64,000 nucleotides of DNA from positions 1 to 64,000 of the forward strand of contig NZ_CP082362.1 of NCBI RefSeq assembly GCF_020740535.1. The letters are read 5' to 3'. The stretch's first letter is position 1, and each line of letters opens with the position of its first letter. Origin of the DNA: Streptomyces profundus. Lineage in GTDB: Bacteria > Actinomycetota > Actinomycetes > Streptomycetales > Streptomycetaceae. The notes beneath the pieces were generated by a model that searched no databases, had not been told where the DNA came from, and saw only the letters and a list, made by a program, of their open reading frames with translations. Of the stretch, positions 1 through 14,516 are shown in pieces. A program made the translations under genes and the position numbers.

Positions 1-106
1 GGCGAATTCCCGCGCAAGCGCGGGAATAGCATTCCGCAAGCGGAATGCAAACAACGTAGCCTATTCGCGCAAGCGCGAATAGGCGGAATCCCGCACGCGG
101 GATTCC
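1..106. repeat. Telomere-like palindrome cluster at the replicon end
   Basis: Four perfect inverted repeats lie head to tail: 6-27 (10-bp arms, centre AA), 29-48 (9-bp arms, centre AA), 59-84 (12-bp arms, centre AA) and 85-106 (10-bp arms, centre AC). Closely packed palindromes with tiny loops are the hallmark of Streptomyces telomeres, where the single-stranded 3' overhang folds and is patched by a terminal protein. A TtrA-like helicase and tap-tpg nearby support this reading. The sequence is not the archetypal telomere I know, which carries a GC-only first palindrome; these arms contain ATTC/GAAT blocks. Position 1 may not be the exact terminus. Confidence 0.75.
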
Positions 107-482
107 AAAAAGACGGCTGGCTACGAGGAGAGGTGGCAGGCGTGAGGGGGATGCACTGTGTGCAGACTGGGATTCGGGGCCATCACCCCCACGCCAGGGA
201 TGGGGCGGAGGAGCATCCGGCCCATCATTGACGGGTGAGGCTCGGGGTCGGGGACGTACCCCGGGGAGGGGTGCGAGGGGGCCGTTGGGGGTCGACTCCG
301 GGTCATGCTATCAGGATAAGGGTGCACGTGGGGGCGGTCTGACGGTCTGTCGCGCTTGAGGGTGAACGCAGATCCAGGGTGATGCATCTGACCCGATGCA
401 CTGTGTAGACTCTGGGTCCAGGGGCTACCACTCCCCTCATGATCCGATCCTCTCCTCCTCGCGAGGTTCCTTTCCCGTGGCT
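107..482. other. Subterminal non-coding stretch
   Basis: I see no convincing gene between the palindromes and the first helicase start. The motif GATGCACTGTGT occurs near 150-161 and again at 395-406, each followed by a related CAGACTGGG or AGACTCTGGG tail, so there is an imperfect direct repeat of about 20 bp. The second copy lies just upstream of the helicase gene. The segment probably holds the helicase promoter, but no clear -35/-10 pair stands out. Confidence 0.4.
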
Positions 483-2978
483 ATGTCGAGACGTGATCTC
501 CGTAATCATCAGATCGAGGCCGTTGATGCCATTGTGCGCGGCTTCGATATTCCCCCGGATGGAATTCCCGCGAATGGTCTTCGCGGGCAGGTAATTTCCG
601 CTTGTGGTACGGGTAAAACTATCATGGCCGCGTTCGCGGCTCGGGAAATGCTGCCGCGTGGGCGCATTCTGGTGGTGGTGCCCACGTTGACTTTGCTGTC
701 CCAGACGGTACGGGAGTGGCGGCGGGTCGGGCATACCGGGCCGGCGGTGGCGGTGTGCTCCCTTGAGGAGGACCCGCAGCTGTGGAACTTGGGGGTGCGG
801 TCCACCACGAATCCAGTGCGGCTGAGTCTGTGGCACGGAAAGGGGCAGGTGGTCATCTTCGCTACCTACGCGTCCCTGCCTGTGCTGGAGGAGGCATTCG
901 AGGGCGCCTACGGGCAGCAACTCGCGCCGATGGACCTGGTGGCAGTTGACGAAGCACACCGCACCTCCGGCTCCCTGGGGAAGCGATGGGCCCGGGTCCA
1001 CGACCAGAAAGCGATCCCGGCGGCCCGTCGGCTGTACCTGACCGCGACGCCGCGGATCTGGCAGGAGCGGGCCCCGCACTGGGAGGTGGCAGAGGGGGTG
1101 CGCGATCCGTTGCCGAAGGAGCTGGCCGCGAGCATGGACGACGAGGCGATCTTCGGCCCCGTCTTCTACAAGCTCTCGTTGGCGTCGGGTGTGTCTCGCG
1201 GCCTGCTTGCGCGGTACCAGATCATCGTGCTGGAGATCCAGGACCCGGTCGTCACTCCCGAGCGGCTGATGGGCGAGGACCGACACAGTGAGGAGGTGCG
1301 CGGGCAGCGCCTGGCGGCGTTGCAGGCCGGCCTGCTGCGAACCATGGCCGAGCACAACCTCCAGACCTGTATCACCTTCCACCACCGGACCATGGAGGCC
1401 CAGGCGTTCGCCGAGGGCCTGGAGACGGTCGCCGACAAGCTCCATGCCGACCAGCCCCAGACCTACCCGAGGAGGATGTGGGCGGACTGGCTGTGTGGTG
1501 AACACGAGCCGGAGCATCGCCAGCCAGTACTGGAGGAGTTCGGGTCCACCGCGCGGCGGGCGGTGCTTTCCAACTGCCGCGTTTTGGGTGAGGGCGTTGA
1601 CATTCGGGCGGTGGACAGCGTCGCCCTGATCGACCCGAAGGGCGCGCCGCACGACATTGTCCAGGCCATCGGTCGGGCGTTGCGGCAAAAGCCCGGTGAA
1701 GGGAAGCTGGCGTCGTTGATTGTGCCGGTCTTTCTCCAGCCCGGTGAAAGCCCGGAGGATATGTTCACCTCCAGCTCGTACCGGCCGCTGGTCAAGGTAC
1801 TGGAAGGGCTGCGGGCACACGACGAGGAAGCTGTGGAATTGCTCGCCATCCCACAGGAACCGCAGAAGGCCATGGTGGAGCCGTCATTCTTCATCGGTCC
1901 GAAGCCGGAGGAAGGCGAGGAAGAATCCCGTCTGTTGTTGCGTTTCGCGGCGCGGCGTGACCCGGCGATGGTCGCGCGGTGGGTGTCGTTCAATGTGGTC
2001 GACATCGAGCGGCAGGACTGGGCCCGTGGCTGGGAAGCGCTGCGCCGGTACGTCGAACGCGAGGGGCAGGCCCGCGTCCCCTACGGCCACCGTGAGGGTG
2101 CGACACCCCTTGGGCAGTGGGTCGCGGAACAGCGGCGCGCCTATGGGGCCGGAGAGATGAGCGGCCAGCGGGCCCGCCGGCTGGAAGACCTCGGGATGGT
2201 GTGGTCGGTCACCGACGAGCGGTTCCAGGAGAACTTGGCCGCCGCGAAGGCGTACTACGAACAGCGCTGGAGCCTCTGTGCTCCGAGGTCCGCCGTGGCC
2301 CTCGACAGGCCGGTAGGACAGTGGTTGAGCAACCTGCGCCGCCCCGGCGCGCTGAACGGGCACCCCGAGTGGGAAACGGCGCTGAACGCGATCGACCCCC
2401 ACTGGAACCCGGACTGGCCCGCGAGTTGGCAGCGCCACTACGCCGCTCTCCACGGCCTCGTCGCCGAGGAGAGCCGCCCGGCCTACGTCGACCCGGGGGT
2501 CACGGTCCACGGCATGGACGTCGGGCGCTGGTTGGCCAAGCAGACCCAACCGGCGGTGTGGGCCAAGCTCCTCCCTGGCCAGCGAGAGCTTCTGGAGCGG
2601 CTCGGGGTCACCAAGGTGGCATCGCCGGTGACGCCTGCGAAGGCCGTGGCCGCCCCCGCGGCGGCCGGCGCGGGGGGCGAGGAGCCTGCGGCTTCCGGCG
2701 GCTTGCCGGCGGCCGGGAAGCCCGCCGGAGGGCGCGGCAGCGCGGCGTTCGAGCGGGGGGTAGCCGCTGCCCGCCAGTACCTCGCCCGCGAAGGCCACCT
2801 CACCGTTCCCCGAGGGCACACCGAGCGCCTGGTCCTCGATGCCGGCATCAACAACGACGACGACCAGGAGCAGCAGACCCTGGAGGTAAAGCTCGGGGTA
2901 TGGCGCTCCAACATGCGCACCAGGCGTCACACACTGCCGCCCGAACAGCAAGCTGTGCTTGAGGAGTTGGGGCTGTAG
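483..2978 (+). CDS. TtrA-like telomere-proximal superfamily 2 helicase
   Basis: An 831-residue SF2 helicase. Visible motifs are RNHQ (residues 7-10), Walker A ACGTGKT (about 40-46), DEAH (156-159), TATP (187-190) and a motif VI-like QAIGRALRQ. The C-terminal third carries helicase-associated repeats of the type WEALRRYVEREG...LGQWVAEQRR...RLEDLGM, and the last one ends at the C terminus (VLEELGL). Such helicases sit at the ends of Streptomyces chromosomes and linear plasmids and affect conjugal transfer and end recombination. An upstream ATG at 396 would add 29 unconvincing residues, so 483 was chosen. The gene reads inward from the end. The family is clear; the telomere role is inferred from position. 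Confidence 0.85.
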   Translation: MSRRDLRNHQIEAVDAIVRGFDIPPDGIPANGLRGQVISACGTGKTIMAAFAAREMLPRGRILVVVPTLTLLSQTVREWRRVGHTGPAVAVCSLEEDPQLWNLGVRSTTNPVRLSLWHGKGQVVIFATYASLPVLEEAFEGAYGQQLAPMDLVAVDEAHRTSGSLGKRWARVHDQKAIPAARRLYLTATPRIWQERAPHWEVAEGVRDPLPKELAASMDDEAIFGPVFYKLSLASGVSRGLLARYQIIVLEIQDPVVTPERLMGEDRHSEEVRGQRLAALQAGLLRTMAEHNLQTCITFHHRTMEAQAFAEGLETVADKLHADQPQTYPRRMWADWLCGEHEPEHRQPVLEEFGSTARRAVLSNCRVLGEGVDIRAVDSVALIDPKGAPHDIVQAIGRALRQKPGEGKLASLIVPVFLQPGESPEDMFTSSSYRPLVKVLEGLRAHDEEAVELLAIPQEPQKAMVEPSFFIGPKPEEGEEESRLLLRFAARRDPAMVARWVSFNVVDIERQDWARGWEALRRYVEREGQARVPYGHREGATPLGQWVAEQRRAYGAGEMSGQRARRLEDLGMVWSVTDERFQENLAAAKAYYEQRWSLCAPRSAVALDRPVGQWLSNLRRPGALNGHPEWETALNAIDPHWNPDWPASWQRHYAALHGLVAEESRPAYVDPGVTVHGMDVGRWLAKQTQPAVWAKLLPGQRELLERLGVTKVASPVTPAKAVAAPAAAGAGGEEPAASGGLPAAGKPAGGRGSAAFERGVAAARQYLAREGHLTVPRGHTERLVLDAGINNDDDQEQQTLEVKLGVWRSNMRTRRHTLPPEQQAVLEELGL

Positions 2979-3236: not shown

Positions 3237-4349
3237 ATGAGGAAGCCATCGCAACGTCGCAGAAGGGCAGCCGCGTTGAGTCACTTCTCCAGTCATGAGG
3301 ATAGCCCTAACGAGGCGCTCCGGCAGGGCCGGACGGCGGTGGATCGTCTGATGACGGGGATGCTGGACGCTGGCGGTATGTTCCGTGAGGTGGCGGCGAC
3401 CCAGGTGCTTCTGTCTACCACGAGCCCTCGCATCCGGTTCGTCGAGTTCGCAGCCGACGAGGAGAAGGAGAACGGAGCCGACTGGCTGTGGTGGTGGGTG
3501 GACCGGGACGGTACCTGTTACGGGCTCCTCGTCCAGGCGAAGATCTTGAAGTTGCACGGCAAGCGCTGGAGCATCGACTTCAGCTACAAGACGCGCGGCG
3601 ACGACCGGACGCAGCTCTCGAAGTTGATCAACGCGGCGAACCACTTCCACGTCCCCGCTGCGTACGTCCTGTACTGCGGTGACTCGCAGTACCGATCGAC
3701 TCTGACCTGCGATCGCGCCCATGACGACGTTCCTTGCAGGGAGCGCGACCGGGTCGGTGTGTCTGCCGTCTCTGCCCTGGTGGCGGAGACGGCCGTGGGC
3801 CTAGACGTCAGGAACGCGGGCGTGAGCGCCTTCCACGATGCTGTCCCGGTCGAAGACATCACCAGCCCCGATGGCCTGGACGCACCGATCGTGCCCCTGG
3901 CGCGCGGGCTAGCCAAGGACCTCGACCGCTTCCTGCGGCAGCCGCAGCGGGGCTCTCGCCGGGTGGCAAAGGAGCTTCTCCGGCCGGTCCAGCGGATCAG
4001 GAACGGCCAGTTCGCCGGTGCGGCAGTCATGGAACACGCCGCCCCGGTAACCGGCGCCCTTTTCGAGAACGTCCCCAACGACTACGGGCACTTCTCCGTG
4101 CCGTACCTCGCGCACATGCTCCGCGGCCTGCGGGCGGAGGTCCCTGACTATGTACGCGACGTCCTGGAGGGCCGAACGCTTCCAACGTGGGTCACTGACC
4201 AGCTTGGCGGGATTGTGGTGATCCCGGACGCGGATGCCCCAGCTGTGGTCCCGGGGCGGGCTTCTGACAGCGGCGCTGGGCGTCGGCTCTCAGGCCTCCG
4301 CGAAACGCCTCGGCCGCCGCATGGCCGTCGCCCTGGGCAAGCCGCGTGA
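3237..4349 (+). CDS. DUF6615-like protein, possible PD-(D/E)XK nuclease fold
   Basis: A 370-residue protein starting at an ATG behind GGGGG. Residues 70-105 hold an acidic run, then NGADWLWWW (D82) and LLVQAK (Q100, K102), followed by a conserved-looking tail with a QLSKLI helix and AYVLYCGDSQYR. This layout matches proteins I know as DUF6615. The D...QxK spacing resembles the QxK variant of the PD-(D/E)XK core seen in Mrr-type restriction enzymes. The C-terminal 60 residues are low-complexity and may be run-on from a rearranged end. It follows the helicase in the same direction with a 258-bp gap and a hairpin between them. Nuclease activity is inference; no partner or target is evident. Confidence 0.6.
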   Translation: MRKPSQRRRRAAALSHFSSHEDSPNEALRQGRTAVDRLMTGMLDAGGMFREVAATQVLLSTTSPRIRFVEFAADEEKENGADWLWWWVDRDGTCYGLLVQAKILKLHGKRWSIDFSYKTRGDDRTQLSKLINAANHFHVPAAYVLYCGDSQYRSTLTCDRAHDDVPCRERDRVGVSAVSALVAETAVGLDVRNAGVSAFHDAVPVEDITSPDGLDAPIVPLARGLAKDLDRFLRQPQRGSRRVAKELLRPVQRIRNGQFAGAAVMEHAAPVTGALFENVPNDYGHFSVPYLAHMLRGLRAEVPDYVRDVLEGRTLPTWVTDQLGGIVVIPDADAPAVVPGRASDSGAGRRLSGLRETPRPPHGRRPGQAA

Positions 4350-4426: not shown

Positions 4427-4640
4427 TCATCCGCTCCAGGGGACTCGCGCGAGTACGAGGCCGCGGACGTCGGCGACGCCGGACGCGCGGAGTCGAAGTG
4501 CGACGTGCTGGAGCTGGGGCCCGCTGGTGAACACGTCGTCGACGAGGAGGATCGTGCGGAGAAGTAGCTCCGTCCGAAGCGGGGTGCGGACTGGAGCGGT
4601 GATGTGCGAACTCCCGGCGCGTTGCCCCCGGTAACATCAC
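4427..4640 (-). pseudogene. Remnant of a ComF-type phosphoribosyltransferase C terminus
   Basis: The minus strand reads TILLVDDVFTSG, followed by LQHVALRLRASGVADVRGLVLARVP and a TGA stop at 4427-4429. The LVDDVFTSG block is the PRPP-binding loop of type I phosphoribosyltransferases such as ComF, and the spacing to the C terminus fits that family. No start codon or N-terminal domain is present upstream, so this is a truncated scrap of about 55-70 codons. The upstream boundary is approximate. Confidence 0.6.
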
Positions 4641-4662
4641 CAGGGCCCTGGCCTGCGATTGG

Positions 4663-5843
4663 CTATCCCCGGCTGGCCGGATTCCGGTGCGCGATCAGCC
4701 GGTTGGTCAGCTCTACCGTGGCGAGGTACCACCAGAAGATCCAGTCGAGGAACGCTTCGTCGTAGTCGCGGCGCTGGTCGGCCCGGCGGTGGCGAAGGTC
4801 GTAGCGGTTGGCAATCTCGAACAGCGCCCCCTCGTCGGGCTTGCCGATCTGCTCCTTGATCAGGGCCCTGCGCTCTTCCAGGATGCCTACGAGAGTCGTG
4901 ATCGCCGATCGCTTGCTCTCGGCTGACGTGTCGCGTCCACGGAAGAGCGCGATGGCGTGGCGGATCCGGGTGGTGATGTCCGGGGTGCTGTCGTTCAGGG
5001 CCCGGTGCACCAGTGCGCTGCGGGCGTCATCGGTGACGGCGGTGAGGCGCCCGAGGTCTTCGCCTTCGGCGGCCAGTTCGTATTCGATGCCGGCTTCGCG
5101 CAGCAGCTCGTTGATCTTCCAGCGGTACAGGACACGTGCCGGGCCGTTGTGAAACTCATGGTGATGCCACCCGCAAGAGTTGAAATCGTGGTATTGCCGT
5201 CTGCGGGGGCGGCTGAGCAGGTCGTGGAAGACTTCGATCAGTCCGTAAAAGGTATCCTTGTCCCACGTCTCTGGAGCCAGGGGCCAGAGGTTGGGGATGC
5301 CAAGGCGCCGGTCAATCACTTCCGAGGCGTCTGGCATTTGGTTGAGATCGTCAACGCATTCTTCACCGAATGCTTCTACCAAGTATCCCTTGTCGGCAAA
5401 TTCCTTGATGATCCGCGCGAATGCCTGGCGAGCGTCCTGTCGTGTGCTGCCACGTTGCGAGCGGCCGTTGCTGCGGCGCTGTGGCCAGTACGGCTGCGGA
5501 GCGACGGCGTGGCGGAGTTCGGCCGCGCGGTTGACCAGTTCGGTGAACCACGCCCGTGGGTCCACGCTGCCGGGCCCACTCTGGGTAGAGGTGGTGGTCG
5601 CCCAAGGGTCTCTCCCCCCCCCCAAGGGTCTCGGCCGGGGATACGGTTGGGCAGCTCTTCGAAGTCGGTGACTGCGGGCCCGGACAGCGCCTCAGTCATG
5701 AGCCACGCCGCCTGCTGCTTCCACCGACCGTTCGGGGACCGGAGGATTCTTTCGCCCTCGGCAACGAACAGCGAGGTAGGCCAGAGGAGTTCATAGTTTC
5801 TCAGGTCCAGAGTCACCACAGCATCATGGCCCACCAGCTCCAT
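4663..5843 (-). pseudogene. HEPN-like (AbiJ-type) protein split by a frameshift at a C10 run
   Basis: Two overlapping minus-strand reading frames make one protein of about 390 residues. The N-terminal frame starts at the ATG at 5843 (MELVGHDAVVTLDL...), and the C-terminal frame runs from about 5625 to the stop at 4663. They meet at ten consecutive G (C on the plus strand, 5614-5623) next to a duplicated CCAAGGGTCTC. The C-terminal part has LFEIANRYDLRHRR, which fits the HEPN RNase motif RX4H (R274-H279 of the downstream frame), then FLDWIFWWYLATVEL, a helix seen in AbiJ-like abortive infection proteins. The shift may be real, phase-variable or a sequencing error. Defence function is inferred from the fold only. 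Confidence 0.6.
5614..5623. repeat. C10 homopolymer with flanking duplicated CCAAGGGTCTC
   Basis: Ten C in a row separate two copies of CCAAGGGTCTC (from 5602 and from 5622). The run is exactly where the HEPN-like gene changes frame, so it is the likely slippage point. Confidence 0.8.
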
Positions 5844-5894: not shown

Positions 5895-6647
5895 TCAGGC
5901 GGGGCTGCCCAGCCGGCTGAAGGCCCAACGCAGGACTTCCTGGTCGACGCGAGGGCGGCCGGTGCGGGCCAGAGCGAGGCGTACATGGGCCGTCAGCCGG
6001 GCCCAGTTACGGAAGTTGCCGTGTGCGGCGTGCTGGTCGGCGAAGGTGATGTCGCCGGGGTCGGCGGCGGCCCAGATGGGGTGGAACAGCGGGATGGTTT
6101 GTAGGACCTCGCTGGGGGTGAGGCGGGTGAAGTGCTGCCAGATGAAGATGCGGGAGGAGAGCATCGGTTCGCGGCGCAGCACGGTGTGGCAGCCCTCGCC
6201 GCCGACGAAGATGATCGCGAGCTGGGTTGAGGGGTCGTCCCACAGGTAGCGGAAGTACTCGAACGCCTCGCCTTTGAGCCACTGGGCCTCGTCGACGAGG
6301 AAGATGCGGGGGCGTTCGGCCAAGGCGGCCTTCAGCAGGCGGTCGAACTCGCTGGGGTGGCGCGGTGGTTGTCCGGGGAGGTCGAGTGCGGTGAACAGTT
6401 CGTAGCGCACCGCGCGGGCGGTGGGCCGAGCCCGGAAGGTGATCTTGCGGACGTCCTCGTGTGGTTCGAGTTCGCTCAGGCAGGTGTTGACGGCGAGGGT
6501 CTTACCGAAGCCGGCGCCCCCGTGGATACACATCATGGCGCGCGCGTCGACGGTGTCGGCGATGTTCTCCCGGGCCGTGAGCAGGGCTCGGGTGGTGACC
6601 ACGGACGCGTCCGGCAGGTCGACGTACTGGTAGGTGGCCGCGCTCAT
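5895..6647 (-). CDS. TniB/MuB-like AAA+ ATPase of a transposition system
   Basis: A 250-residue AAA+ protein with Walker A GGAGFGKT (43-50), Walker B RIFLVDEAQ (114-122) and a sensor-like strand LAIIFVGGEG. This architecture is typical of TniB and MuB, the ATP-dependent target selectors that work with DDE transposases of the Tn7/Tn5053/Mu class. The ATG at 6647 has GGAG 8 nt upstream. No intact TniA transposase or TniQ is present on either side, so it is an orphan: either the last gene of a decayed element, or an ATPase recruited to another role. It is not the IstB of a simple IS21 pair, because no IstA is visible. Confidence 0.75.
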   Translation of the reverse strand: MSAATYQYVDLPDASVVTTRALLTARENIADTVDARAMMCIHGGAGFGKTLAVNTCLSELEPHEDVRKITFRARPTARAVRYELFTALDLPGQPPRHPSEFDRLLKAALAERPRIFLVDEAQWLKGEAFEYFRYLWDDPSTQLAIIFVGGEGCHTVLRREPMLSSRIFIWQHFTRLTPSEVLQTIPLFHPIWAAADPGDITFADQHAAHGNFRNWARLTAHVRLALARTGRPRVDQEVLRWAFSRLGSPA

Positions 6648-6883
6648 CAGGCATCTCCGTATTCGTCGGTGGTGGGAGGTACAGACCGCCCGCCCGGGCC
6701 GTCGAGGGCGGAATCGGAATCGCAGCCGGACGGGGCGGGGGCAGGCCGGCCTGGCGAGGTGAGCGCGGACAGGGAAGTGGGGGTGCGCCACCCCGCTGGC
6801 GGCGCGGCGGGCGGGATGGCGAAGCACATCGCCACCGCGTGTTCGTGCGTCAAGCCCCCTGGTGGCGTTCGGGTTTCGTCCAT
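6647..6883 (-). CDS. Small ORF coupled to the TniB-like gene
   Basis: A 78-residue frame begins at an ATG at 6883 (MDETRTPPGGLTHEHAVAM...) and its TGA overlaps the TniB-like ATG as TGATG, which suggests translational coupling. The first 30 residues look protein-like; the rest is Pro/Ser/Gly-rich. It could be the tail of a lost transposase or a small accessory protein. I do not recognise the family, and it may not be real. Confidence 0.3.
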   Translation of the reverse strand: MDETRTPPGGLTHEHAVAMCFAIPPAAPPAGWRTPTSLSALTSPGRPAPAPSGCDSDSALDGPGGRSVPPTTDEYGDA

Positions 6884-7743
6884 GGCCGCACCATACGTCG
6901 CGTGGTAGGCGCCGCCGTGTGGTGAGCCCACCGGGTGCCGATCGCCGGGCCAGCGGCATCCCCCCGGTGTGTTCGCCCATCAGCGATGCCAGGTCGGTGG
7001 CCACCTGCGGCTTGGTCAGGACCCGACGGACGAGCGCTGGTTCGCCGAGTTGGCCAGCCGCGAAGTGGTCGGATTCGATGATGCGGTTCCCGGGAGATCT
7101 CGCTGGTCTTCCTCGGGTCCTGGAGCGGATCGGTGGAGGAGATCGGTGGTAGCACCGAGCGCAGAGGGCCGACTGGATGACCGCCGTGGTTGGGAAGCGG
7201 TGTGGCGGTGCGTTGAACGGGAGGGGCACGCCGGCGTCCGTACGGCCGCGGTCGTGACCGCGTTGAGGTGGCCGGGGTCGGTGAGCGACGACTGTGCCGG
7301 CCAGGTGTCCTGTGAGGGCGTGGAGACGGTGCGGCGGGACCAGGTCGAGCGAGGGATCCGGATGCCGCCGTCGCGCCCGGCTTGGCACCCGCAGGTATAG
7401 CCGTGGTCCTTTCGTCGTCGGCTGCTTTCGGAGGTCGGCCTGGCGGTCGGTCCCGGCGTCGCCATGGCGTCACGAGTTCGCCCTCGGTGTGTGTTAACGG
7501 AAGAGTGTCGCGCCGGAATGTGGACGCCACCGCATTGAGGTGTGTACCGCAGCAGTGGTCTGACGGCCTATGGGGGGGGCTGAATTCGATGAGGTGGGCC
7601 GCTTCACCTGAATGAGGTTTTCTCGGTGAAATGATCTTCGCGAAGTGGGTTGATCTGGGTGTGTCCGCCTGAGTGGGACATCGGTGCCCTGGCCGTGGAA
7701 GGGCGTGAAGCCCCGACCCTACTGAGAAAATGCCAATCGGGCT
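6884..7743. other. Stretch without a confident gene, probably decayed mobile DNA
   Basis: No reading frame on either strand looks like a full protein. On the minus strand near 7000-7090 one frame gives a short protein-like run (SDHFAAGQLGEPALVRRVL), with no domain I can name. Its position upstream of the orphan TniB-like gene is where a TniA transposase would be expected, so it may be the eroded remains of one. Confidence 0.35.
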
Positions 7744-11864: not shown

Positions 11865-12422
11865 TCAGAATTCGAGGTCGAGGTAGTCGATGTCGGTGAG
11901 GGCCACGTCGGTGAGGCCGAGGGCGCGGGTGCCGCCGTCCTGGAAGTAGATGTCGCGGAGGCCTTCGGCGACGATGCCGCGCAGGTGGTCCTCGGTGGTT
12001 CCGGTGTCGCGGGCGGTGAAGAGGCGGTCGGCGTACGGGGGCGGGAGGTGGACGGTGAGGCGGCGGAGGCGGCCGTCGTCGGTGGTGCCGGCGGGGGCGG
12101 TGTAGCCGATGCGGGCTCGGGTCTCGACGGTGATTCCGCCGACGGTGGCGGCGTGGCGTTGGCGGCGTTTGCGGACGCGGGGTTGCCAGCGGGCGCGGAC
12201 GGCGGCGTCGATGCGGTCGGCGATGGCCTTGGGTGGGTTCTTGCGTGCGCCGCGCCGGTAGCGGTTGACGGAGTCGGGGGTGACGCCGAGTTCGGCCGCG
12301 ACGGCGCGGGTCGTCTTGAACTGCTTCATCAGGAAGTTGATGCGGGCTTGGAGGGTCTTGGGGGGTTGGCGGGTGAACGTCTCGTTGTCGGCTCGGGTGA
12401 TGGCGTCTTCGATCTCTCCCAC
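11865..12422 (-). CDS. tpg: Telomere terminal protein Tpg
   Basis: A 185-residue protein starting at GTG, 3 nt after the tap stop codon. It matches Tpg, the protein bound covalently to the 5' ends of Streptomyces linear replicons, along its whole length as I remember it: an N-terminal PPKTLQARINFLMKQFKTTR block, a helix-turn-helix (VAAELGVTPDSVNRYRRG), PPKAIADRI, RARWQPRVR, GITVETRARIGYTA and the tail YFQDGG...TDIDYLDLEF. Thr114, reported as the nucleotide-linked residue in S. coelicolor Tpg, falls at position 114 here, within AGTTDD. It primes end patching together with Tap, and marks this as a linear replicon. Confidence 0.93.
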   Translation of the reverse strand: MGEIEDAITRADNETFTRQPPKTLQARINFLMKQFKTTRAVAAELGVTPDSVNRYRRGARKNPPKAIADRIDAAVRARWQPRVRKRRQRHAATVGGITVETRARIGYTAPAGTTDDGRLRRLTVHLPPPYADRLFTARDTGTTEDHLRGIVAEGLRDIYFQDGGTRALGLTDVALTDIDYLDLEF

Positions 12423-12425
12423 GGT

Positions 12426-14516
12426 CTACTCTCCTTCGTCGAGGACGGCGTCGCCGCCCTTGATGTGGCGGGCCGGGTTGTGGCCTTGTTCCATGAGGTC
12501 GACCGCCCAGGCCATTTCCTGGACGCCTTCCAGCTTTGCCAGGCCGGGGGTGGGGCCGAGGCGGAAGGCTCCGGGTTGGGGCTTGCCGGACGCGGCGTAG
12601 GGGAGGAGGTCGGTGGGGCTGGGGCCGGGTGAGGGGTAGACGACGCAGTCGGAGAGCACCGCGAGGGGGTAGCGGCCGGTGAACTTCGCCATGTTGGTGA
12701 GCTTGCGGTGCATGTTGACGCGGGCTTTGGAGATGACGGCGGCGCGGATGTCCGGCCGCCAGGTGGGGCGTTCCAGGGCCGGCCATCGTTCGCCGGGTTT
12801 GTAGTGGCGGCCTTGGGGGCGTTCGCGGAGCTTCCCGACGCCGCCTTTGACGGTGGCTTTGATGGCGGTGAGGACGGCGGCCAGGCCGGGGTCGGCGTGT
12901 TTGTGGTGTTCCATGGCGGTGAGGAACTCCGCGTCGTTCAGGTCGCGGGTGACGCCGAGGTCGGCGAGGGTTGCCACGTAGGCGTTCTTGAGGTGGTCGT
13001 GCCAGGGGTCGAGGTAGGCGCCGGTCAGGCGGCGTAGGTATGCCTCGGTAGGGGCGATGTTGTGGCCCAGTTCCTGGGCGTAGGCGATGGTGTGGGTCTG
13101 GTACCAGGCGGGTCCTGTCGGCCGTGTGCCGGTGGGGGTGAACGGGGAGGGCAGGCGTGGGTCCAGCTCGATGTGGGACAGGTCGACGTACCAGGAGCCG
13201 GGGATCTTGGGGTTGAAGGTGGGGTGGGTGAGGTGTTCGGGGGCGCCGAGGCCGACGGTGAGGCGGGCGGACGCGGCGAGGAACGCGGTGTTGAGGTCGA
13301 GGCCGATCGCGTGCGGCAGGAGGCATTCCTCGTCGCTGAGGAGGTCTGTGTGGCGGACCCACTGGTAGGCCTCCTCGTCGAGGAAGCCCTTGTTCCAGGC
13401 GGAGTTGATGACGACCGGGTGTTCCGGGGTGGCCTCGGGCGGCGCCGGGTCGACGGGGTGGGTGCCGAGGGATCCGGGGTTGTGGCCGGGGATCCAGTTC
13501 CCGGTGGTCTCGTCCCGTACCGCTCGGGTGGGGGGGCGCAGCGCGGTCATGAGTTCGAGGCCGGAGACGGCGGTGGAGCCGCGGGGGGTGATGACGCGGG
13601 TCGCGTAGGTGCTGAGGACGCGCGCGATGTCGGGGGGTCGCATGTGGGTGACGCCGGGCCAGGAGCGGGCGTCGAGGGCGTCCCAGGGCAGGATCGCGAG
13701 TTGCACGCACTGCCGGTCGCGTCCCTGGGCGTTGCGGTAGATCCGTGCCCAGGGGCCGAATCCGCGTTGGGTGAGCCGCCATCGGGCGCGGGTGATCTGT
13801 GTGATCACGGGGTGGTCTTCGGGGAGGCGCAGGGAGCGGCGCTGTTCGTGGCCTTCCAGGCGTTCGGGCAGTCCGAGGTTGGTGGCGGCTGAGGCGGTGA
13901 GGGCGATCAGCGGGTCGGCGTCCTTGCCGTGCCGGTGCAGGGGGGCGGCGCCGAGGCCGGATTCCTTGAGTGTCCACTCCACCAGCTGCGGGATGGTGGT
14001 GGCCGGGCAGTCCAGCACGATGCCGTGGGCGGCGTAGGCGGAGCCGTCGCCGTCGAGGACGGCGAGCGGGCCGTGGGGGAAGCGCGGGTCGGTGGCGGTG
14101 CGGGGGGTGGGTTGGGCTGGCTTCCCTACCGGGTGGGGTGACGAGGCGGCGGGGTGGGCGGGGCTTTCGGGCACGGGCGCGGGTGGGGGTGGGGTGGCGG
14201 GGGGCTCGATCGGCGTGCTGGTGGGTGTGGTGGGTGGAGCCGAAGCGGTGGGGGTGGCGGGGGTGGTGGGGGCGGGGTACTTCGTCGCCCAGCCGTTGAG
14301 GAGTCGTTGGTATGCCTCCAGGCGGGGTGGTTTGGGTTCGGAGCGGCCGTTCTCCCAGTTCTTGACTGTCTGTGTCGTGCTTTTGAGCGCGGTGGCGAGG
14401 CGGGCCTGGGTGATGCCGGCGGCTTCCCGCAGCCTGGCTCGTTCGGCGGGGGGCGGCAGCGGCGGTTCCTCCAACAGTGCGTCTACGTTGGCGAACAGCT
14501 CTTCCTCGGTGGGCAT
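12426..14516 (-). CDS. tap: Telomere-associated protein Tap
   Basis: A 696-residue protein directly upstream of tpg in the same operon. It has an XRE-type helix-turn-helix near the N terminus (about 26-75; ITQARLATALKSTTQTVKNWENGRS), a Pro-rich linker (about 80-130) and a long conserved body. Tap binds the 3' overhang of the telomere and brings Tpg to the end for patching. The length is close to that of known Tap proteins and no frame break is seen. Because the local telomere palindromes look non-archetypal, the target specificity of this Tap is of interest. The ATG at 14516 has only a weak GGGTC-type ribosome site. Confidence 0.9.
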   Translation of the reverse strand: MPTEEELFANVDALLEEPPLPPPAERARLREAAGITQARLATALKSTTQTVKNWENGRSEPKPPRLEAYQRLLNGWATKYPAPTTPATPTASAPPTTPTSTPIEPPATPPPPAPVPESPAHPAASSPHPVGKPAQPTPRTATDPRFPHGPLAVLDGDGSAYAAHGIVLDCPATTIPQLVEWTLKESGLGAAPLHRHGKDADPLIALTASAATNLGLPERLEGHEQRRSLRLPEDHPVITQITRARWRLTQRGFGPWARIYRNAQGRDRQCVQLAILPWDALDARSWPGVTHMRPPDIARVLSTYATRVITPRGSTAVSGLELMTALRPPTRAVRDETTGNWIPGHNPGSLGTHPVDPAPPEATPEHPVVINSAWNKGFLDEEAYQWVRHTDLLSDEECLLPHAIGLDLNTAFLAASARLTVGLGAPEHLTHPTFNPKIPGSWYVDLSHIELDPRLPSPFTPTGTRPTGPAWYQTHTIAYAQELGHNIAPTEAYLRRLTGAYLDPWHDHLKNAYVATLADLGVTRDLNDAEFLTAMEHHKHADPGLAAVLTAIKATVKGGVGKLRERPQGRHYKPGERWPALERPTWRPDIRAAVISKARVNMHRKLTNMAKFTGRYPLAVLSDCVVYPSPGPSPTDLLPYAASGKPQPGAFRLGPTPGLAKLEGVQEMAWAVDLMEQGHNPARHIKGGDAVLDEGE

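Follow-up and report, generated by a model that had tools for sequence, protein, structure and literature searches.

A CTTG-loop telomere and type I Tap/Tpg genes at the left end of the Streptomyces profundus chromosome

The first 106 nucleotides of the Streptomyces profundus chromosome are a real, probably slightly shortened telomere of a known minority class, the non-archetypal CTTG telomeres described by Tidjani et al. 2020, among others in the S. dengpaensis plasmid and pS1D4-14.1 (PMC7205883). They represent a new member of this class and not a new class. In the favoured reading (probability about 0.9), positions 1-106 correspond to the four inner hairpins of the telomere at the left end of the chromosome, served by the type I Tap and Tpg encoded in the window, a term that designates here the whole 64,000-nucleotide stretch of DNA analysed (C1:1-64000 of a genome assembled as a single contig of 7,653,710 bp). 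Direct support comes from palindromes at both contig ends, class membership, covariation, the sole tap and tpg genes being of type I, and a conserved T114 in Tpg. The first-pass annotation had suggested a non-archetypal Streptomyces telomere at this position, a proposal borne out by both contig ends, homologues at other replicon ends and covariation. The main features of the window are listed in Table 1.

Table 1. Telomeric and telomere-associated features of the window
Feature	Positions	Strand	Basis
Probable remnant of palindrome III (next outward)	1-4		Inference from relatives' ends
Palindrome IV, CAAG/CTTG loop	6-27		Inverted repeat, arm 10; alignment, covariation, fold
Palindrome V, CAAG/CTTG loop	29-48		Inverted repeat, arm 9; alignment, covariation, fold
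Palindrome VI, CAAG/CTTG loop	59-84		Inverted repeat, arm 12; alignment, covariation, fold
Palindrome VII, CACG loop at left end, CAAG at right end	85-106		Inverted repeat, arm 10; alignment, covariation, fold
Terminal helicase gene (DEAD/ResIII, Helicase_C, helicase-associated repeats)	483-2978	+	Pfam; inside terminal inverted repeat
tpg, terminal protein, 185 aa, type I clade, T114 conserved	11865-12422	-	NF047541, 277.5 bits against a cut-off of 90
tap, telomere-associated protein, 696 aa, type I clade	12426-14516	-	NF047542, 1096.9 bits against a cut-off of 600

A repeat search identified four perfect inverted repeats within positions 6-106, with arms of 10, 9, 12 and 10 bases and 2-nt centres. 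Under a first-order Markov control (20 simulations, perfect hairpins with arms of at least 9 and loops of 2-4), a mean of 3.35 perfect hairpins is expected per 64 kb, and the occurrence of four in 106 bp is therefore not a product of chance. Repeat search and control together confirm the packed palindromes with 2-nt centres reported by the first-pass annotation; its range of arm lengths (9-12) was right, and of the third arm it quoted 10 of the 12 bases. As single-stranded DNA, the 3' strand of the left end folds into the same four hairpins (z = -7.6, with 0 of 200 shuffles as good), and the same block at the right end gives z = -7.8. On this strand, CTTG loops are found in three of the four hairpins at the left end and in all four at the right. 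The additional idea that the palindromes were amplified from one hairpin was rejected, since each of them is conserved by position, with its own counterpart in 36 other aligned copies, which include the right end of the same contig and one internal copy; the set is therefore old.

The CTTG hairpins are maintained by compensatory mutation. Across the four stems (37 distinct sequences, 42 pairs), 92.4% of the cells pair and 17 of the 42 pairs show changes on both sides, the double changes directly seen being G-C to C-G, A-U to U-A and, at the loop, C-G to U-A. Double-changed cells amount to 92 against 28.8 in shuffles, and 0 of 500 shuffles reach 92, a figure that is not a probability: the shuffles keep the relatedness of the sequences in, and the structure was taken from one of them. 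When partners are slid by one base, pairing falls to 38-45%. Outer pairs often fail in stems IV (columns 1/25), VI (59/84 and 60/83) and VII (86-89 with 103-106). Loops are highly uniform over the 37 aligned copies, with CAAG on the 5' strand, i.e., CTTG on the 3' strand, in 134 of 148 cases, and TAAA with a compensated closing pair in five more.

The first-pass annotation had advised looking for the same sequence at the other end of the assembly, and the block was indeed found there in inverted orientation, with 94% identity over 5-118 and 97 of 102 identical columns (95%) over the palindromes (5-106). Inward of the palindromes, identity between the two ends is 65% over 107-330, 73% over 331-483 and 82-92% across the terminal helicase gene, and 34% just beyond. 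The terminal inverted repeat thus delimited is about 3.0 kb long and 85% identical, the palindromes being its best preserved part. Judged from the sequence, this pattern has the look of a selected telomere and not of a duplicated contig. The open frame of the helicase gene runs from 396, the start that it has in common with the right-end copy being at 483; from its position and domains, we take this gene to be TtrA-like. Several other elements were observed in this region. Just inside the palindromes, at 120-195, lies a composite element (TGCA...TGTGTAG...GGGATTC...CCACCACCCCC) that partly recurs in other class members and is possibly a promoter or binding site for the helicase gene. Further inward, a 133-bp stretch (window 4548-4680 against 4078-4210 from the right end) is 97% identical between the arms without a longer surrounding match, and a subtelomeric AAA ATPase gene (AAA_22) occupies positions 5895-7388 of the minus strand.

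Database searches revealed that the block is broadly distributed at the ends of Streptomyces replicons. Positions 1-106 match 78 of 72,556 plasmid records at E <= 1e-5, all of them from Streptomyces and including the S. dengpaensis plasmid (CP026653) and pS1D4-14.1 (CP041605); among the 60 matches listed, 59 lie at most 250 bp from the record end and the other is 17 kb inside. The block is matched by 39 of 392 sampled Streptomyces genomes, the present one included, and is located at most 160 bp from a contig end in 34 of the 36 other genomes with tabulated contig coordinates, the exceptions being G172 and G212. The CTTG class, for which the publications found give one soil population and related linear plasmids as the only sources, is present in about one tenth of the sampled Streptomyces species. 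A family-wide draw of 150 genomes gave six matches in three of 17 genera: four in Streptomyces, counting the present genome, and two outside it (G399 and G439), where the nearest contig end is 60 and 63 bases away. The class is therefore not confined to Streptomyces. Two internal copies may be mentioned here. In G172, a CTTG-class telomere (L157, G172:C1:20151-20225) is 20 kb away from the end of a single contig of chromosome size. The outer 20 kb resemble neither the adjoining 10 kb nor the final 20 kb of this contig; this copy is either a misassembly or an internal relic. In G212, the best tpg of which does not belong to type I, a two-hairpin telomere relic (L159, G212:C14:260701-260742) was found 35 kb from a contig end.

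The window block is 70-88% identical to many replicon ends of the CTTG class. Compared with the telomeres of S. dengpaensis and pS1D4-14.1 it remains alignable, with 69.5% identity over 190 bp and 75.5% over 98 bp, and the S. dengpaensis telomere sits with it in the single alignment of 37 copies. Alignment with CTTG and archetypal telomeres, a comparison of the kind that had been proposed, thus places the segment in the class of Tidjani et al. 2020 (PMC7205883), with only short weak matches between window positions 1-330 and the archetypal telomeres of pSglau1 and SAP1, and the suggestion that the sequence is a new telomere is not supported. A search of the genome with the pSglau1 telomere detected no alignable archetypal telomere. 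Beyond PMC7205883, titles and abstract openings in the literature yielded no further description of the CTTG class, and the six-class account of Algora-Gallardo et al. 2021 does not name it in sections 12-13 or in the first part of section 14 (PMC8743542).

The assembly does not seem to reach the extremity of the chromosome. In 11 of 11 aligned ends that start with CCCGCGGAGCGGG (palindrome I), the match to the window block is preceded by 63-76 bp, made of palindrome I and two more palindromic segments, the third being imperfect in some ends. CCCGCGGAGCGGG has 0 occurrences in the whole assembled S. profundus genome, which by comparison stops about 60 bp short, and the window opens with bases resembling the tail of the third palindromic segment. 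Because the relatives' ends carry these outer bases and the window start resembles that tail, about 60 bp of outer telomere (palindromes I-III) are probably absent from the assembly at each end. A similar gap affects the sub-clade I chromosomes of Tidjani et al., for which palindrome I was neither ruled in nor out (PMC7205883). The assembled ends being devoid of palindrome I, the priming site lies outside the data, and this one-contig chromosome can be flagged as probably short of its last 60 bp or so at each end. Continuation of the replicon to the left of position 1, regarded by the first-pass annotation as an argument against a telomere, is thus probably real in a trivial sense, for the approximately 60 bp indicated by relatives.

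The genome has a single tap match and a single tpg match; in the tpg search, the 8 best candidates were scored per genome (8 of 40 for the present one). By alignment, the window Tpg possesses both D115 and T114, the latter being the deoxynucleotidylated residue of S. lividans Tpg (PMC3572947). All 43 aligned type I Tpgs have both residues, and in the 53 non-type-I Tpgs, D115 is constant with Thr (46) or Ser (7) at position 114. The window Tpg is 68-70% identical to those of CTTG plasmids and 41-48% identical to the two of SLP2. Two main clades are seen in a midpoint-rooted FastTree tree (support values not printed) built from 96 sequences, each with 160 or more aligned residues; one of these clades contains SLP2, pSCL2 and only archetypal-telomere genomes. 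In this tree, the window Tpg does not fall in the archetypal clade of SLP2 but in the other main clade, type I, together with pS1D4-14.1, S. dengpaensis, pSCL4, the two hybrid plasmids described below and, for each CTTG genome placed, its best Tpg, only best matches having been taken from CTTG genomes, in which extra archetypal tpg copies would not show. This clade also takes in the best Tpgs of eight archetypal-telomere genomes. The C-terminal parts of Tap follow the same partition, with identities of 64-85% for type I operons, against 49-61% for archetypal operons (Tap matches of at least 246 residues). The archetypal appearance attributed to tap and tpg by the first-pass annotation is thus correct at the level of protein families (NF047541, NF047542) and incorrect at the level of clades, and a telomere served by the standard archetypal pair is not what was found. 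With window genes of type I, the puzzle of a new telomere associated with standard Tap/Tpg therefore dissolves.

CTTG telomeres and type I tpg genes are tightly associated. A tpg matching that of the window at E < 1e-60 was found in 38 of 39 CTTG genomes versus 46 of 353 others (Fisher p = 4e-28), and at a stricter cut (E < 1e-70) in 37 of 39 versus 41 of 353; the only CTTG genome devoid of such a match is that of the G212 relic, joined under the second threshold by G060 (59%). Across 18 replicons, distances between telomeres are correlated with those between Tpg proteins (Mantel r = 0.56, p = 1e-4), a correlation that could have its source in shared ancestry. Left ends were viewed in 20 genomes. 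Two are CTTG genomes taken for comparison: the class is visible at the left end of G387 but not at that of G172. The other 18 come from the 46 genomes having a type I tpg and no CTTG match. Archetypal-like hairpins were seen in two of these 18 (G226 and G151), and the first 220 bases of the other 16 had no packed hairpins (three with a single hairpin); these 16 left ends are probably incomplete in the assembly and so uninformative.

The association was also considered from the archetypal side, with 39 genomes picked by eye from the top of the pSglau1-telomere match list (197 of 392 genomes match this query somehow, many of them weakly and internally); contig-end position was checked for part of the picks, and the G070 copy is internal. 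With G229 left out for having both telomere classes, 38 were scanned for tpg: in 30 of them the best tpg does not exceed 55% identity, two have both types (G130 and G304), and six have a full-length type I tpg only (G018, G066, G226, G248, G281 and G286), all six with an archetypal telomere match at a contig end. Four of the six (G018, G248, G281 and G286) are drafts in which an archetypal tpg could be unassembled, and three genomes missed by the pick that score as well (G357, G034 and G250) have a best tpg at E 1e-47 to 1e-51, not type I, and would, if included, bring the proportion from 6/38 to 6/41. In G226, assembled as a single contig, each end carries archetypal hairpins, with type I tap-tpg genes 6.6 kb away from it. 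These six genomes indicate that the genes do not dictate the telomere class. Once the G212 relic is set aside, none of the 38 CTTG genomes lacks a type I tpg, against 6 of the 38 archetypal genomes that lack an archetypal tpg (Fisher p = 0.025), a weak asymmetry that is only suggestive. Two S. canus linear plasmids, NZ_CP109336.1 and NZ_CP107990.1 (L010, L212-L214), have one CTTG end and one archetypal end, and their only full-length tpg, one per plasmid, is of type I; no tap match was detected within 1.5 kb of the tpg of NZ_CP107990.1. Compatibility may, as a rather doubtful proposal, be one-way, with type I Tap/Tpg patching both CTTG and archetypal ends, which have palindrome I in common, and archetypal Tap/Tpg being unable to patch CTTG ends. 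If so, type I lineages would offer linear replicons a route to switch telomere class, and the hybrid-end plasmids with only a type I tpg would be intermediates. More generally, how strictly telomeres and capping proteins are matched becomes directly testable with type I and archetypal pairs.

Both sets coexist in S. clavuligerus, where pSCL4 has CTTG ends and type I tap/tpg, and pSCL2 an archetypal right end and archetypal tap/tpg, the latter pair having been noted as nearer to that of S. coelicolor (PMC8743545). Strains cured of pSCL4 were reported to have circular chromosomes (confirmed for two clones) while retaining pSCL2 and pSCL1 (PMC8743545). This account fits two non-interchangeable telomere/Tap-Tpg sets, if the S. 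clavuligerus chromosome has CTTG ends. The pSCL4 variant of palindrome V was found in 36 stretches of named genomes, including three from Streptomyces (S. alkaliterrae twice and S. cacaoi) and none from S. clavuligerus.

By analogy with the archetypal system, the 3' strand of the S. profundus telomere would stay single-stranded after bidirectional replication and fold into CTTG-loop hairpins. Type I Tap would recognise these hairpins and position type I Tpg, whose Thr114 would accept the initial dCMP opposite the CCCGCGG palindrome at the extremity and prime end patching. Folding of the overhang in vivo, Tap binding and priming are carried over from archetypal telomeres, where Tap attaches to the 3' overhang at hairpins II and III and holds Tpg, both proteins together laying down palindrome I as the first 13 nt (PMC4513846); the publications found on the CTTG class, in the parts available, report no biochemistry. 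The CTTG class has palindrome I in common with archetypal telomeres but lacks the hairpins to which Tap binds there, as would be expected if priming were conserved and Tap recognition had diverged.

Three other explanations were weighed. That the contig ends are internal palindromic repeats, terminator- or REP-like, with the true ends further out, could draw on the two relatives carrying the motif internally (20 kb and 35 kb from the contig end in G172 and G212), but it hardly accommodates a block inverted at both ends of one contig and followed by a terminal helicase gene, nor homologues so regularly terminal (34/36), and we regard it as extremely improbable. Little more can be granted to an entirely new class of telomere on which the usual archetypal Tap/Tpg would act: the identity of the block with many replicon ends, published CTTG telomeres included, and the type I position of both proteins (with 41-48% Tpg identity to SLP2) speak against it, even though similarity to the pSglau1 and SAP1 telomeres is limited to short weak matches and tap and tpg pass the general NCBIfam models.

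That a different terminal-protein system, for instance a GtpA/GtpB-like pair, patches the CTTG telomere while the type I Tap/Tpg stays idle was raised as a possibility by Tidjani et al., who reported GtpAB homologues in all their strains, CTTG ones included (PMC7205883). Archetypal telomeres accompanied by type I tpg only, in 6 of 38 genomes, would also be compatible with idle type I proteins. This explanation is nevertheless unlikely in view of the near-obligatory co-occurrence of CTTG telomere and type I tpg, and of the circular S. clavuligerus chromosomes obtained upon loss of pSCL4. Service of the left telomere by the type I Tap/Tpg of the window thus remains the preferred reading.

Among known systems, the window most closely resembles the S. 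dengpaensis plasmid CP026653 and pS1D4-14.1 CP041605: the palindromes and their order agree, the 3' strand has CTTG loops, and tap and tpg form a type I operon. It differs in its block, which is 69-79% identical to theirs and has its outer 60 bp or so unassembled. Within the CTTG class, palindromes V and VI of the window are distinguished by compensatory stem variants that few aligned members share. The linear megaplasmid pSCL4 of S. clavuligerus has both ends of the CTTG class, with Tpg and Tap 65% and 68% identical to those of the window, but its stems are more diverged. Archetypal telomeres (SLP2, SAP1 and pSglau1) also consist of packed palindromes at replicon ends, and palindrome I (CCCGCGGAGCGGG) is common to SLP2, SAP1 and those window-class relatives that reach the end. 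In contrast, palindromes II onward are not alignable, and the centres on the 5' strand are TGC in archetypal telomeres and CAAG in the CTTG class. The same mixture of likeness and difference applies to the proteins: the tap-tpg gene order and residues T114 and D115 of Tpg are those of the archetypal systems, whereas the window Tpg as a whole is only 41-48% identical to the two Tpgs of SLP2.
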